Shown: positions 26,352-64,000 of the stretch, piece by piece
Numbering within the stretch: position 1 is the stretch's first letter
Layout of the letters: each line of letters opens with the position of its first letter
Position numbers and translations under genes: made by a program
Notes under the pieces: model-generated
Databases searched by the model: none
Seen by the model: the letters and a program-made list of their open reading frames with translations, nothing else
What the model was told of the DNA's origin: nothing
DNA from: Streptomyces sp. f51
GTDB taxonomy: Bacteria; Actinomycetota; Actinomycetes; Streptomycetales; Streptomycetaceae
NCBI RefSeq assembly: GCF_037940415.1
Contig: NZ_CP149798.1
Location: 3,651,001-3,715,000, forward strand
Direction of reading: 5' to 3'
DNA: 64,000 nucleotides

Positions 26352-27821
26352 TCAGGTCTGTGCCATGTCCACGAAGCGTGAGTAGTGGCCCTGGAAGGCC
26401 ACCGTGATCGTCGCCGTCGGGCCGTTACGGTGCTTGCCGACGATGATGTCGGCCTCACCGGCGCGGGGGGACTCCTTCTCGTACGCGTCCTCGCGGTGGA
26501 GCAGGATGACCATGTCCGCGTCCTGCTCGATCGAGCCGGACTCACGCAGGTCGGAGACCATCGGCTTCTTGTCCGTACGCTGCTCGGGGCCACGGTTGAG
26601 CTGCGACAGCGCGATCACCGGCAGTTCCAGCTCCTTGGCCAGCAGCTTCAGGTTTCGCGACATGTCGGAGACCTCCTGCTGGCGGCTCTCGGAACGCTTG
26701 CCGCCGGACTGCATCAGCTGGAGGTAGTCGATGACCACGAGCTTGAGGTCGGCACGCTGCTTGAGACGGCGGCACTTGGCGCGGATCTCCATCATCGACA
26801 GGTTCGGGGAGTCGTCGATGTAGAGGGGGGCGGCCGAGACGTCCGGCATACGACGGGCGAGCCGGGTCCAGTCCTCGTCCGTCATCGTGCCGGACCGCAT
26901 GTGGTGCAGCGCCACGCGGGCCTCGGCGGACAGCAGGCGCATCGCGATCTCGTTGCGGCCCATTTCGAGCGAGAAGATCACACTGGGCATGTTGTGCTTG
27001 ATCGAGCAGGCGCGGGCGAAGTCCAGCGCCAGCGTCGACTTACCCATGGCGGGACGGGCCGCGATAATGATCATCTGGCCGGGGTGCAGACCGTTGGTGA
27101 GCGAGTCGAGGTCGGTGAAGCCGGTCGGAACACCGGTCATCTCCCCCGAACGCGATCCGATCGCCTCGATCTCGTCGAGCGCGCCCTCCATGATGTCGCC
27201 GAGCGGCAGATAGTCCTCGGTGGTGCGCTGCTCGGTGACCGCGTAGATCTCGGCCTGGGCGCTGTTGACGATCTCGTCCACGTCGCCGTCGGCCGCGTAT
27301 CCCATCTGGGTGATCCGCGTGCCGGCCTCGACCAGGCGGCGCAGGACCGCGCGCTCGTGCACGATCTCCGCGTAGTACTCGGCGTTCGCCGCGGTCGGGA
27401 CCGTCTGGACCAGCGTGTGCAGATACGGGGCGCCGCCGACCTTGGTGATCTCGCCGCGCTTGGTGAGCTCGGCCGCGACCGTGATGGGGTCGGCCGGCTC
27501 GCCCTTCGCGTACAGGTCGAGGATCGCGCCGTAGATGGTCTCGTGCGCGGGCCGGTAGAAGTCGTGGCCCTTGAGCACCTCGACGACGTCGGCGATGGCG
27601 TCCTTCGACAGGAGCATGCCACCGAGCACGGACTGCTCGGCGTCGAGGTCCTGCGGCGGCACCCGCTCGAACGACGAACCGCCGCTCTCCCAGGAATCGC
27701 TGTCCCGGTCGTGCTGCTCGTCGCGGCCTCGGCCTCCGTTCCCGCGCCGTCGGGACGAGGGCAGACGATCACTGGGGCCACTCTCCGCCCAGGGGTCGTC
27801 CAAGGGCTCGGAAATAGTCAC
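26352..27821 (-). CDS. dnaB: Replicative DNA helicase DnaB
   Basis: About 489 residues. A polar N-terminal tail of 50 residues precedes the helicase N-domain (FERVPPQDLDAEQSVLGGML) and the RecA-like C-domain with Walker A (AARPAMGKSTLALDFA, near residue 255), Walker B (LKLVVIDYLQLM), and the conserved ALSQLNRG and DLRESGSIEQDADMV. It is the hexameric 5'-3' helicase loaded by DnaA/primase. The GTG at 27821 (VTISEPLDDPW) has a GGGAGGAGG ribosome site; the open frame continues to 29099 but only as a shadow of the MATE gene. No intein is seen. Confidence 0.97.
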   Translation of the reverse strand: MTISEPLDDPWAESGPSDRLPSSRRRGNGGRGRDEQHDRDSDSWESGGSSFERVPPQDLDAEQSVLGGMLLSKDAIADVVEVLKGHDFYRPAHETIYGAILDLYAKGEPADPITVAAELTKRGEITKVGGAPYLHTLVQTVPTAANAEYYAEIVHERAVLRRLVEAGTRITQMGYAADGDVDEIVNSAQAEIYAVTEQRTTEDYLPLGDIMEGALDEIEAIGSRSGEMTGVPTGFTDLDSLTNGLHPGQMIIIAARPAMGKSTLALDFARACSIKHNMPSVIFSLEMGRNEIAMRLLSAEARVALHHMRSGTMTDEDWTRLARRMPDVSAAPLYIDDSPNLSMMEIRAKCRRLKQRADLKLVVIDYLQLMQSGGKRSESRQQEVSDMSRNLKLLAKELELPVIALSQLNRGPEQRTDKKPMVSDLRESGSIEQDADMVILLHREDAYEKESPRAGEADIIVGKHRNGPTATITVAFQGHYSRFVDMAQT

Positions 27822-28274
27822 CGAGCCACCTCCTCCCGTCCGCGGAGCGGACCTAGCAGTGCCCTTAATTTCTACGGCACGGCACTGACAAGTGAGCGGC
27901 CCGACTCCGCATCTCACGCGTCGGTTTTGCGAGCTTTCCGAGGCCGGAGAAGAGAACGGGCGCCGCACCACGTTAGGCCCGCGGGCACCGTCAGCCAATC
28001 TGGTTATCCACAGGCCATGTGGACGACGGCCCCGATGCTGTGGAGAACTCCGCGAAACCTGTGCACGACCCGGTGGACAGCCCTGTGAACAAGCCCTCAG
28101 GCCTTCTGAAGAACAGGCTCTGACCTGGCATTTTCCCATCCACCGGCTGTGCAGAAGAAAAACTTCCCCAGCCGGATCAAGATCGCCTCGAACAGTGCGC
28201 CAGAACACACCCCGCACGCACGGAAGTAAGGGTCCTTCGCCTTTTGCATCTCTTACCTGTGGAAGATTAGATTG
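27822..28274. other. Divergent intergenic region dnaB / MATE, rich in DnaA-box-like sequences
   Basis: About 450 bp. A TTATCCACA 9-mer and five degenerate DnaA-like 9-mers lie between 28004 and 28092, with a weaker one at 28258-28266. Otherwise the region is lower in G+C than its neighbours and shows no small gene. Confidence 0.7.
28004..28092. promoter_or_regulatory. Cluster of DnaA-box-like 9-mers
   Basis: TTATCCACA (28004-28012) is a perfect consensus box. TGTGGACGA (28018), TGTGGAGAA (28039) and TGTGAACAA (28084) each differ by one base from TGTGGACAA; TGTGCACGA (28060) and GGTGGACAG (28072) by two. Six in 89 bp is far above expectation in high-G+C DNA. DnaA-box clusters outside oriC are known in S. 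coelicolor; whether this is the counterpart of one is not known to me. Confidence 0.6.
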
Positions 28275-29618
28275 ATGCCCATGACACAGGCTCCCGTGGC
28301 ACCCAGGGCCACCCGGCACCGGCACGACCGAGAGATCGTGGCACTGGCCGTTCCGGCGTTCGGCGCGCTCGTGGCCGAGCCTCTCTTCGTGCTGGCCGAC
28401 AGTGCCATCGTCGGCCATCTCGGGACCGCGCAGCTGGCCGGTCTCGGCGTCGCCTCGGCCCTCCTCATGACAGCCGTGGGAGTCTTCGTCTTCCTCGCGT
28501 ACGCCACGACGGCAGCGGTCGCCCGCAGGGTCGGCGCCGGAGATCTGCGGGCCGCGATCCGCCAGGGCATGGACGGAATCTGGCTCGCGCTGCTCATCGG
28601 CGTTGCCGTGATCGCCCTCGCCCTGCCCACCGCACCCGCACTCATGGAGGTGTTCGGCGCCTCCGACGCCGCCGCCCCGTACGCGACGACGTATCTGCGG
28701 ATCTCGGTGCTCGGCATCCCCGCCATGCTCGTCGTGCTGGCCGCCACGGGAATCCTCCGGGGACTCCAGGACACGAAGACTCCGCTGTACGTCGCCGTCG
28801 GGGGATTCGTCGCCAACGCGGTGCTCAACGCCACCCTCGTCTACGGCGCGGATCTCGGCATCGCCGGCTCCGCCTGGGGCACGGTCATCGCCCAGTGCGG
28901 CATGGCCGCTGTCTATCTCCACGTCGTCCTGCGCGGAGCGCGGAAGCACGGCGCCCCCCTGCGGCCGGACGCGGCCGGCATCCGAGCCTGCGCCCAGGCC
29001 GGCACCCCCCTGCTCGTCCGAACGCTGTCGCTCAGGGCGATCCTCCTGATCGCCACGGCGGTGGCCGCCCGGCTCGGGGACGCCGACATGGCCGCCCACC
29101 AGATCATCCTGTCGCTGTGGAGTCTGCTCGCCTTCGCGCTCGACGCCATCGCCATCGCGGGGCAGGCCATCATCGGGCGCTACCTCGGCGCGGACGACGC
29201 CCCTGGCGCCCGTGAGGCTTGCCGGCGCATGGTGCAGTGGGGGCTCGCCACCGGACTCGTACTCGGTCTCCTGGTCATCGCCGCTCGCCCCCTCTTCCTT
29301 CCGCTGTTCAGCGGCGACCCGGGTGTGCAGAACGCCGCGCTGCCGGCCCTGGTGATGGTGGCCGTCTCGCAGCCGATCTGCGGGATCGTCTTCGTCCTGG
29401 ACGGCGTGCTGATGGGCGCGGGGGACGGTCCGTACCTGGCCTGGGCCATGCTGCTCACCCTGGCGGTGTTCGCCCCGGCAGCGCTGCTCGTTCCCGTTCT
29501 CGGCGGAGGGCTGACCGCTCTCTGGGGCGCGATGACGCTGATGATGGCGATGCGGATGCTGACCCTGTGGCTACGCTCCCGCTCGGGCCGCTGGATTGTC
29601 ACCGGCGCGACCCGCTGA
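28275..29618 (+). CDS. MATE-family efflux transporter (DinF type)
   Basis: About 447 residues with twelve membrane spans in two repeated halves. The N-terminal ALAVPAFGALVAEPLFVLAD followed by SAIVGHLGTAQLAGLGVAS matches the DinF branch; ILRGLQDTKTPLYVAVGGF is another family mark. These export cationic drugs using Na+ or H+. The ATG at 28275 has GGAAGA at a suitable distance; the TTG just upstream is less likely. It converges on the ribosomal operon, and parS-type sites follow it. Confidence 0.9.
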   Translation: MPMTQAPVAPRATRHRHDREIVALAVPAFGALVAEPLFVLADSAIVGHLGTAQLAGLGVASALLMTAVGVFVFLAYATTAAVARRVGAGDLRAAIRQGMDGIWLALLIGVAVIALALPTAPALMEVFGASDAAAPYATTYLRISVLGIPAMLVVLAATGILRGLQDTKTPLYVAVGGFVANAVLNATLVYGADLGIAGSAWGTVIAQCGMAAVYLHVVLRGARKHGAPLRPDAAGIRACAQAGTPLLVRTLSLRAILLIATAVAARLGDADMAAHQIILSLWSLLAFALDAIAIAGQAIIGRYLGADDAPGAREACRRMVQWGLATGLVLGLLVIAARPLFLPLFSGDPGVQNAALPALVMVAVSQPICGIVFVLDGVLMGAGDGPYLAWAMLLTLAVFAPAALLVPVLGGGLTALWGAMTLMMAMRMLTLWLRSRSGRWIVTGATR

Positions 29619-58055: not shown

Positions 58056-58082
58056 TGTGGAGAAATCCACCTCTGTGGACAA
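58056..58082. promoter_or_regulatory. Two DnaA boxes in the parA leader
   Basis: TGTGGACAA (58074-58082) is a perfect Streptomyces DnaA box on the minus strand (TTGTCCACA); TGTGGAGAA (58056-58064) has one mismatch. Confidence 0.65.
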
Positions 58083-61967: not shown

Positions 61968-62365
61968 TCGGGGGCTCCAGAAAGAATCGGTGGTGGCGGG
62001 GTGCCGTCCTGGCTGTCACCGTGCGCCCACGAGGAAACTCGCATTACGCCCGAGTGCACCGCTTCCCGATCACTCTTCGTGATCTGTGCCCATCGGAGGC
62101 AGGCGGCAGCAGCCATCGACAACTCGACCTGGTTACGGTACGCGCGGCTACGCCATCCGGTCAAACCAACCCCCGGCGGGGGACACTATCCACAGGCTGG
62201 GGACAACAACTTGAACCGCACCCGTCGCCCTGACTACCGTGGCTGAACTCCGATTCGTTCCCTTCCCGCCGCCCCAGCGGCTTTGTTCCCCCCGCCCCAA
62301 GCGACTGACTTCCCAACCTGTTCCCAGAACCACACGTTCGTGGGACCCGTGAGAGAGCGTGCCCC
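61968..62365. other. rpmH-dnaA divergent promoter region
   Basis: About 400 bp with the start regions of both operons and one pair of DnaA-box-like sequences (62186-62206). No small gene is evident. oriC itself lies on the other side of dnaA in Streptomyces. Confidence 0.7.
62186..62206. promoter_or_regulatory. Pair of DnaA-box-like sequences upstream of dnaA
   Basis: CTATCCACA (62186-62194) and TGGGGACAA (62198-62206), inverted to each other, each one base from consensus. Similar boxes in the S. lividans dnaA promoter serve autoregulation. Confidence 0.7.
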
Positions 62366-64000
62366 GTGGCTGACGTACCTGCCGATCTTGCCGCAGTGTG
62401 GCCACGCGTACTGGAACAACTCCTGGGCGAGGGCCGCGGGCAGGGTGTCGAGGTGAAGGACGAGCACTGGATCAAGCGCTGCCAGCCCTTGGCCCTGGTC
62501 GCCGACACCGCTCTGCTCGCCGTCCCCAACGAGTTCGCCAAGAACGTACTGGAAGGCCGGCTCGCTCCGATCGTCAGCGAGACGCTGAGCCGCGAGTGCG
62601 GCCGCCCCATCCGTATCGCCATCACCGTCGACGACTCCGCGGGCGAGCCCTCCATGCCCGCCCCGCCCCGCTACGAGGAGCCCGAGCTCCCCGCGGGCCC
62701 CGGCCAGGGCCGCGACCCGTACGACAACAAGGGCCGCGACGACCGGGGCGGCTACGACGGCGGCTCGTACGACGGCACACAGTCCCGGGACGACCGCGGC
62801 GGCTACGAGAGCCCGGCGCGGGACGACCGCGGCTACGACGGCGGCCAGGGCCGCGACGACCGCGGGACGTACGAGCCGCAGGGCCGCGACGATCGCGCTC
62901 CGTACGACTCCCGCCGCGACGGGTACGAGGGCTACGGCCGCCACCGCGCCGACGACCACCGCGGCGGCCGCGCCGAACCGCTCCCCGGAGCCCCTGGCGA
63001 CCAGCTGCCGACCGCCCGTCCCGCGTACCCGGACTACCAGCGTCCGGAGCCGGGCGCCTGGCCGCGGCACTCCCAGGACGACTACGGCTGGCAGCAGCAG
63101 CGCCTCGGCTTCCCCGAGCGGGACCCCTACGCCTCGCCGCCCCAGGACTACCGGCCCCAGCCGGTGGAGCGCTCGCCCTACGAGCAGCGCCAGGACTACG
63201 AGCGCTCCGACCGCCGCGACCAGAACGACCACTCCGACAGCGGTCAGGGACGCAGGGGCGGCCCCGCCCTGCCGTCCTCGGGCGGCGGACCCGGTGCGAA
63301 GCCGTCGCAGCCCGCGCCGGCGCCGGGTCCGGGCGAGCCCACCGCGCGGCTGAACCCGAAGTACCTCTTCGACACGTTCGTGATCGGTGCCTCGAACCGC
63401 TTCGCGCACGCCGCCGCGGTGGCCGTCGCCGAGGCGCCGGCGAAGGCCTACAACCCGCTCTTCATCTACGGGGAGTCGGGACTCGGCAAGACGCACCTGC
63501 TGCACGCGATCGGGCACTACGCCCGCAGCCTCTACCCGGGGACCCGGGTGCGGTACGTGAGCTCGGAGGAGTTCACCAACGAGTTCATCAACTCCATCCG
63601 CGACGGCAAGGGCGACAGCTTCCGCAAGCGGTACCGCGAGATGGACATCCTGCTCGTCGACGACATCCAGTTCCTCGCGGACAAGGAGTCGACGCAGGAG
63701 GAGTTCTTCCACACCTTCAACACCCTGCACAACGCGAACAAGCAGATCGTGCTGTCCAGCGACCGGCCGCCCAAGCAGCTGGTCACGCTGGAGGACCGGC
63801 TGCGCAACCGCTTCGAGTGGGGCCTGATCACCGACGTCCAGCCGCCCGAGCTGGAGACCCGTATCGCCATCCTGCGCAAGAAGGCCGTCCAGGAGCAGCT
63901 CAACGCCCCGCCGGAGGTGCTGGAGTTCATCGCGTCCCGGATCTCGCGCAACATCCGCGAGCTGGAGGGCGCGCTGATCCGGGTGACGGCGTTCGCGTCG
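62366..64000 (+). CDS. dnaA: Chromosomal replication initiator DnaA, 3' end cut by window
   Basis: 545 codons are present; the DNA-binding domain IV is beyond the edge. GTG start ([20 protein letters not shown]). Domain I covers about residues 1-90. Domain II is unusually long, about 230 residues, acidic and polar with tandem near-repeats of RDDRGGY type. Domain III (AAA+) begins near [13 protein letters not shown], with Walker [10 protein letters not shown] near 369, Walker [10 protein letters not shown] and the arginine-finger region [12 protein letters not shown]. It unwinds oriC and loads DnaB. Confidence 0.97.

Follow-up and report, generated by a model that had tools for sequence, protein, structure and literature searches.

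The window considered here, a stretch of 64,000 nucleotides, corresponds to positions 3651001–3715000 of the 8.15 Mb genome of Streptomyces sp. f51. It carries dnaB, encoding the replicative DNA helicase, and a divergently oriented neighbour that encodes a MATE-family transporter (Table 1). The helicase matches Pfam DnaB_C (E 2.5e-108) and the DnaB N-terminal domain (1.4e-36) and scores above the cut-off of TIGR00665; the transporter matches Pfam MatE (1.2e-49) and scores above the cut-off of TIGR00797. A dnaB gene was found in all of the family and class genomes searched (150/150 and 118/118). The gap between the two start codons, 470 bp from that of dnaB at 27821 to that of the MATE gene at about 28275/28281, carries a group of predicted DnaA boxes. 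dnaA starts at 62366, 34 kb from this group, and the boxes of oriC lie just past the window edge (genome positions 3715771–3716283), about 37 kb from the dnaB cluster. The DnaA protein of this genome retains the usual DNA-binding signature, GGRDHTTVMHA.

Table 1. Genes, predicted promoter elements and predicted DnaA boxes of the dnaB-MATE region (window coordinates).
Feature	Sequence or form	Position	Strand	Conservation or remarks
dnaB, replicative DNA helicase	489 aa, GTG start at 27821	26352..27821	-	
Predicted dnaB -10 hexamer	TAACGT (relatives TANNGT)	27970..27975	-	
Predicted dnaB -35 hexamer	TTGGCT (relatives TTGGNN)	27993..27998	-	17-nt spacer
Predicted DnaA box 1	TTATCCACA, perfect	28004..28012	+	80/80 Streptomyces; 18/20 family loci
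Predicted DnaA box 2	TCGTCCACA, 1 mismatch	28018..28026	-	71/80 Streptomyces
Predicted DnaA box 3	TTCTCCACA, 1 mismatch	28039..28047	-	78/80 identical, TTGTCCACA in 2
Predicted weak DnaA box 4	TCGTGCACA, 2 mismatches	28060..28068	-	72/80 identical
Predicted weak DnaA box 5	CTGTCCACC, 2 mismatches	28072..28080	-	76/80 identical
Predicted DnaA box 6	TTGTTCACA, 1 mismatch	28084..28092	-	80/80 Streptomyces identical
Predicted MATE promoter	-35 TTGCAT, 18-nt spacer, -10 TAGATT	28244..28273	+	-35 at 28244-28249, -10 at 28268-28273
Outlying weak DnaA box	TCTTCCACA, 2 mismatches here	28258..28266	-	beyond 28004-28092
MATE-family transporter gene	divergent neighbour, start 28275 or 28281	28281..29618	+	

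Mismatches were counted against the consensus TTRTCCACA. Read directly, the 89 bp from 28004 to 28092 contain six boxes: one is perfect, three differ from the consensus at one position and two at two positions. An earlier sequence-only reading had described one perfect and five near-boxes within 89 bp, placed in the dnaB-MATE gap about 34 kb from dnaA; the box count, the two flanking genes (by Pfam and NCBIfam) and the position of dnaA all agree with it. Among Streptomyces, box 2 varies to TCATCCACA in 5 of 80 loci, with four further singletons. Across the family, box 3 reads CTGTGGAGA or CTGTGGATA in nearly all loci, box 4 is TTGTGCACA in several relatives, and box 5 is much weaker outside Streptomyces. 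In most other genera of the family box 6 is perfect (TTGTCCACA or TTATCCACA), which means that Streptomyces has a weaker form of it. The outlying box is TCGTCCACA in 51 of the 80 Streptomyces, TCTTCCACA in 23, and TCATCCACA and CCGTCCACA in 3 each, and at this place TTACCTGTGGA is nearly invariant in the family.

Between box 1 and dnaB, the family alignment shows two conserved blocks, CCAA and ACGNTA. Read on the dnaB strand they give TTGGCT, 17 nt and TAACGT, as is usual for housekeeping promoters of Streptomyces, with box 1 sitting 5 bp upstream of the -35 hexamer. This promoter was derived from conservation and is predicted from short hexamers; a scan with the sigma-70 consensus found no promoter, as Streptomyces hexamers are too degenerate for it. 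A match to TTGN3-N16-18-TAN3T at 4–6 bp from box 1 is present in 80/80 Streptomyces and 16/20 family loci, compared with 2% at random positions of the same segments. Transcription of dnaB is expected to start near 27963, which would put the box centres at about -45, -59, -80, -101, -113 and -125. The boxes are thus upstream of the predicted hexamers and in constant register with them, as at DnaA-activated promoters; adjoining the -35 while leaving both hexamers clear, they have what looks like the geometry of an activator. In S. coelicolor, dnaB (SCO3911) lies at the edge of the conserved origin island and belongs to the regulon of the housekeeping sigma factor HrdB. The methylome paper on that species describes methylated cytosines upstream of SCO3911 and a higher dnaB transcript following demethylation, findings that are not linked to the boxes.

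The predicted MATE promoter would give a nearly leaderless start, and TTG..TANNNT directly precedes the MATE start in 76 of the 80 Streptomyces loci. The outlying box falls within the spacer of this promoter and is kept across the family, which might suggest that DnaA represses the MATE gene, or dnaB, from these boxes, as a negative feedback or transcriptional shut-off. DnaA does repress its own promoter in several bacteria, including Streptomyces lividans. However, the main cluster is clear of the predicted dnaB -10 and -35, and a mycobacterial DnaA mutant with weaker binding makes less dnaB, not more. The outlying box also has two mismatches in this genome, so that any repression of MATE may be weak. 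Repression is accordingly regarded as improbable.

Other parts of the gap are conserved too. A block at 27843–27890 in the predicted dnaB leader (TGTCAGTGCCGTGCCGTAGAAA on the dnaB strand) is conserved family-wide; a promoter suspected there earlier was dropped, as the block has no TTG/TA pair at a usable distance. A CATCCACCGGCTGTGCAGAAGAAAAACTT stretch is conserved at 28141–28163, between the box cluster and the MATE promoter, and an inverted repeat GTAA...TTAC at 28225–28256, nearly invariant in the family alignment, flanks the MATE -35 and may be a regulator site. These additional blocks leave room for the view that the 9-mers are sites of another regulator, or that the gap encodes a structured RNA, their likeness to DnaA boxes being accidental. 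This is highly improbable: the boxes occur on both strands and outnumber the reversed motif across the class, the corresponding mycobacterial region is bound by DnaA, and Rfam gave no match for 27700–28400.

Conservation among Streptomyces, which the sequence-only reading had named as one of two points on which its proposal could fail, was examined in 80 loci collected by a search with the MATE protein (no S. coelicolor record is among them). All 80 keep the boxes with the same spacing. TTATCCACA lies at a constant distance from the MATE start in every one save a single locus with an 11-bp shift, where box order and spacing are unchanged. At offsets 0, 14, 35, 56, 68 and 80 from box 1, the commonest 9-mer accounts for 80, 71, 78, 72, 76 and 80 of the 80 loci, respectively, while the median register of the gap has its commonest 9-mer in only 29. 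A scan making no assumption about boxes, anchored on box 1 (which is also recovered with the MATE start as anchor), found 9-mers whose commonest form occurs in at least 76 of 80 loci only at 27991–28007, at boxes 3 to 6 and at 28253–28255. The first of these stretches covers the -35 and box 1, that of box 4 includes its left flank, and the last runs into the outlying box. Departures from the consensus are conserved as well (box 3 is TTCTCCACA and box 6 TTGTTCACA, for example), and this points to set affinities rather than decaying boxes. Since the 80 loci are related, their agreement weighs less than 80 independent cases would.

The same elements line up in the family alignment, which covers 16 genera with 20 regions upstream of dnaB, that of the window among them. 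Box registers are exact or within one base at most loci. One locus lacks 12 bp, equal to one box period, and in two genera box 1 is degenerate with the other boxes present. Beyond the family, 39 dnaB upstream regions of 750 bp each, from about 24 families of the class, contain 119 boxes with at most one mismatch, where 6 would be expected and the reversed motif occurs 14 times. At least one box is present in 38 of the 39. A pair consisting of a + box followed by a - box at 13–15 bp recurs in several of these families. As a contrast set, 26 serS upstream regions outside Streptomyces had three boxes in total. A promoter-like sequence beside a box is rare outside the family: 7/38 class loci have one, and in three loci of a single family it lies at 4 bp from box 1. 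The activating arrangement may therefore not hold in general.

In the 575 kb examined around oriC, at least three boxes (at most one mismatch) per 100 bp occur at six places, all of which fall inside 110 kb: two in oriC, the dnaB cluster, and three others at genome positions 3629388, 3640328 and 3737019. No such cluster arose in 30 order-3 Markov simulations of the 575 kb. With four boxes of at most one mismatch in 89 bp, separate from oriC, the dnaB cluster has the density of a non-origin DnaA-box cluster. Perfect boxes were counted genome-wide: TTRTCCACA occurs 68 times and the reversed motif 21 times. Of the 13 copies of the perfect TTATCCACA, 7 are inside 132 kb spanning oriC. The cluster at 3629388–3629697 occupies the 570-bp pheA-serS gap, with a tRNA-Ser gene 2.3 kb farther. 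It is seen in the sampled Streptomyces and is absent from other families, and being limited to Streptomyces in this sample it is left out of the conserved pair described below. The three-box cluster at 3640328–3640373 is in the gap before an RNA 2'-phosphotransferase-like gene (named by eye). Two more boxes (TTCTCCACA and TTGTCCACA, 58056–58082) occur within the 5' part of parA, and a box pair, CTATCCACA / TTGTCCCCA, at 62186–62206, 160 bp before dnaA, is presumably the autoregulation site of the dnaA promoter.

A concentration around oriC is what might be expected if the dnaB cluster served mainly as a sink or inactivating site for DnaA, like datA or the S. coelicolor clusters, keeping initiator from oriC once duplicated and so curbing over-initiation, with the neighbourhood of dnaB incidental. 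Reviews describe the S. coelicolor clusters near oriC as repressing untimely initiation, in line with the influence on replication attributed to them at the outset, and hold that datA of E. coli and the DnaA-box clusters of B. subtilis restrain it too. In addition, dnaB lies near oriC across the class, so that the linkage of the cluster to oriC is conserved as well, and dnaB and crgA (see below) are 53–151 kb apart in most genomes that have both on one contig. However, a sink would need neither a fixed 5-bp distance to a promoter nor a presence before dnaB in 38 of 39 diverse loci, and the mycobacterial mutant ties binding at the dnaB site to dnaB expression. Further, the highest affinity in S. 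coelicolor reportedly belongs to the cluster D78, not to H24, the likely counterpart of the present one. As the main role of the cluster, a sink is considered rather unlikely.

The most plausible explanation, and one that is probably correct, is that the cluster is a DnaA-responsive activating element of dnaB, with activation as its main role. The perfect box 1 would serve as an anchor for DnaA, which, when ATP-bound and abundant, would spread to the weaker boxes; these, boxes 2 to 6, extend from about -59 to -125 with spacings (14, 21, 21, 12 and 12) near whole helical turns. Bound DnaA would then aid RNA polymerase at the dnaB promoter, and the supply of helicase would track the level of active initiator. 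The cluster most likely also holds DnaA near oriC: its six sites may take up DnaA after each replication round, because they lie about 37 kb from oriC, are duplicated early after initiation and could bind several DnaA molecules. Activation and titration can coexist. The original proposal, that the cluster titrates DnaA or ties dnaB to it, is thus supported, with promoter geometry and the published mycobacterial data favouring control of dnaB, most likely by activation, and titration as a possible second effect. For this organism, we infer DnaA binding, activation and titration alike from the sequence and from what is known in others.

The cluster at 3737019 (genome 3736870–3737069) is just 3' of crgA (Pfam CrgA 1.4e-29). 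A CrgA search across the class showed boxes within 500 bp 3' of the gene in 30/30 loci (80 boxes vs 8 of the reversed motif), with one box upstream of crgA in the class loci. A frequent arrangement is + box, 13 bp, + box, 10 bp, - box. This means that both the dnaB site and the crgA site are kept across the class. Rv0011c of M. tuberculosis is CrgA, which places the mycobacterial Rv0010c-Rv0011c DnaA site in the same position relative to crgA. The authors who mapped that site describe a palindrome of two DnaA-box-like sequences and see no obvious correspondence in other species; the crgA-side site of the mycobacterial map was thus previously unmatched in other bacteria. It is conceivable, as a tentative extension, that actinomycetes have two ancient DnaA-binding stations flanking oriC, one before dnaB and one 3' of crgA, that jointly set the level of free DnaA and couple septation as well as the supply of helicase to initiation. 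If so, the mycobacterial Rv0010c-Rv0011c site would be the crgA station.

Non-origin DnaA-box clusters are of a kind already known; what is new here are the exact box registers, the promoter beside box 1, the class-wide conservation and the crgA counterpart. Together, the promoter hexamers and six boxes provide an exact, testable layout of how DnaA could control the Streptomyces replicative helicase. Like the present cluster, datA and the B. subtilis clusters are DnaA-box clusters away from the origin. datA has no tie to dnaB and acts via ATP hydrolysis that depends on IHF, whereas the cluster described here adjoins that gene. The S. coelicolor clusters H69, H24 and D78, reportedly named after cosmids, are closer in kind, since they too lie outside the origin but in its vicinity on a Streptomyces chromosome. 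From its gene order and context, the dnaB cluster likely corresponds to H24; the crgA and pheA-serS clusters would most likely be H69 and D78, respectively. D78 is said to bind DnaA best, and its deletion to raise the number of origins, an in vivo phenotype reported for that cluster only.

In Caulobacter crescentus, dnaB depends on DnaA as a member of its regulon and has predicted DnaA boxes upstream, as here, although the phylum is distant and the source describes no six-box array (PMC8203912). The nearest comparison is with mycobacteria, where purified M. tuberculosis DnaA enriched five regions (oriC, rpmH-dnaA, Rv0057 upstream of dnaB, Rv0010c-Rv0011c and Rv3843c-RVnc0040), and ChIP-seq in M. 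smegmatis gave the matching five (PMC7738170). The DnaA variant I282T shows reduced binding at the dnaB promoter and the strain under-expresses dnaB, an association (PMC7738170). By analogy, the mycobacterial and Caulobacter data support DnaA binding at the Streptomyces site and would favour activation over repression. Both actinomycete sites have DnaA boxes upstream of dnaB, with binding demonstrated in mycobacteria and predicted here; they differ in the neighbouring gene (Rv0057 vs the divergent MATE gene) and are likened by position, not base by base. The comparison joins the DnaA-box clusters of Streptomyces with the mycobacterial DnaA map, two bodies of work without mutual citation in the text examined.
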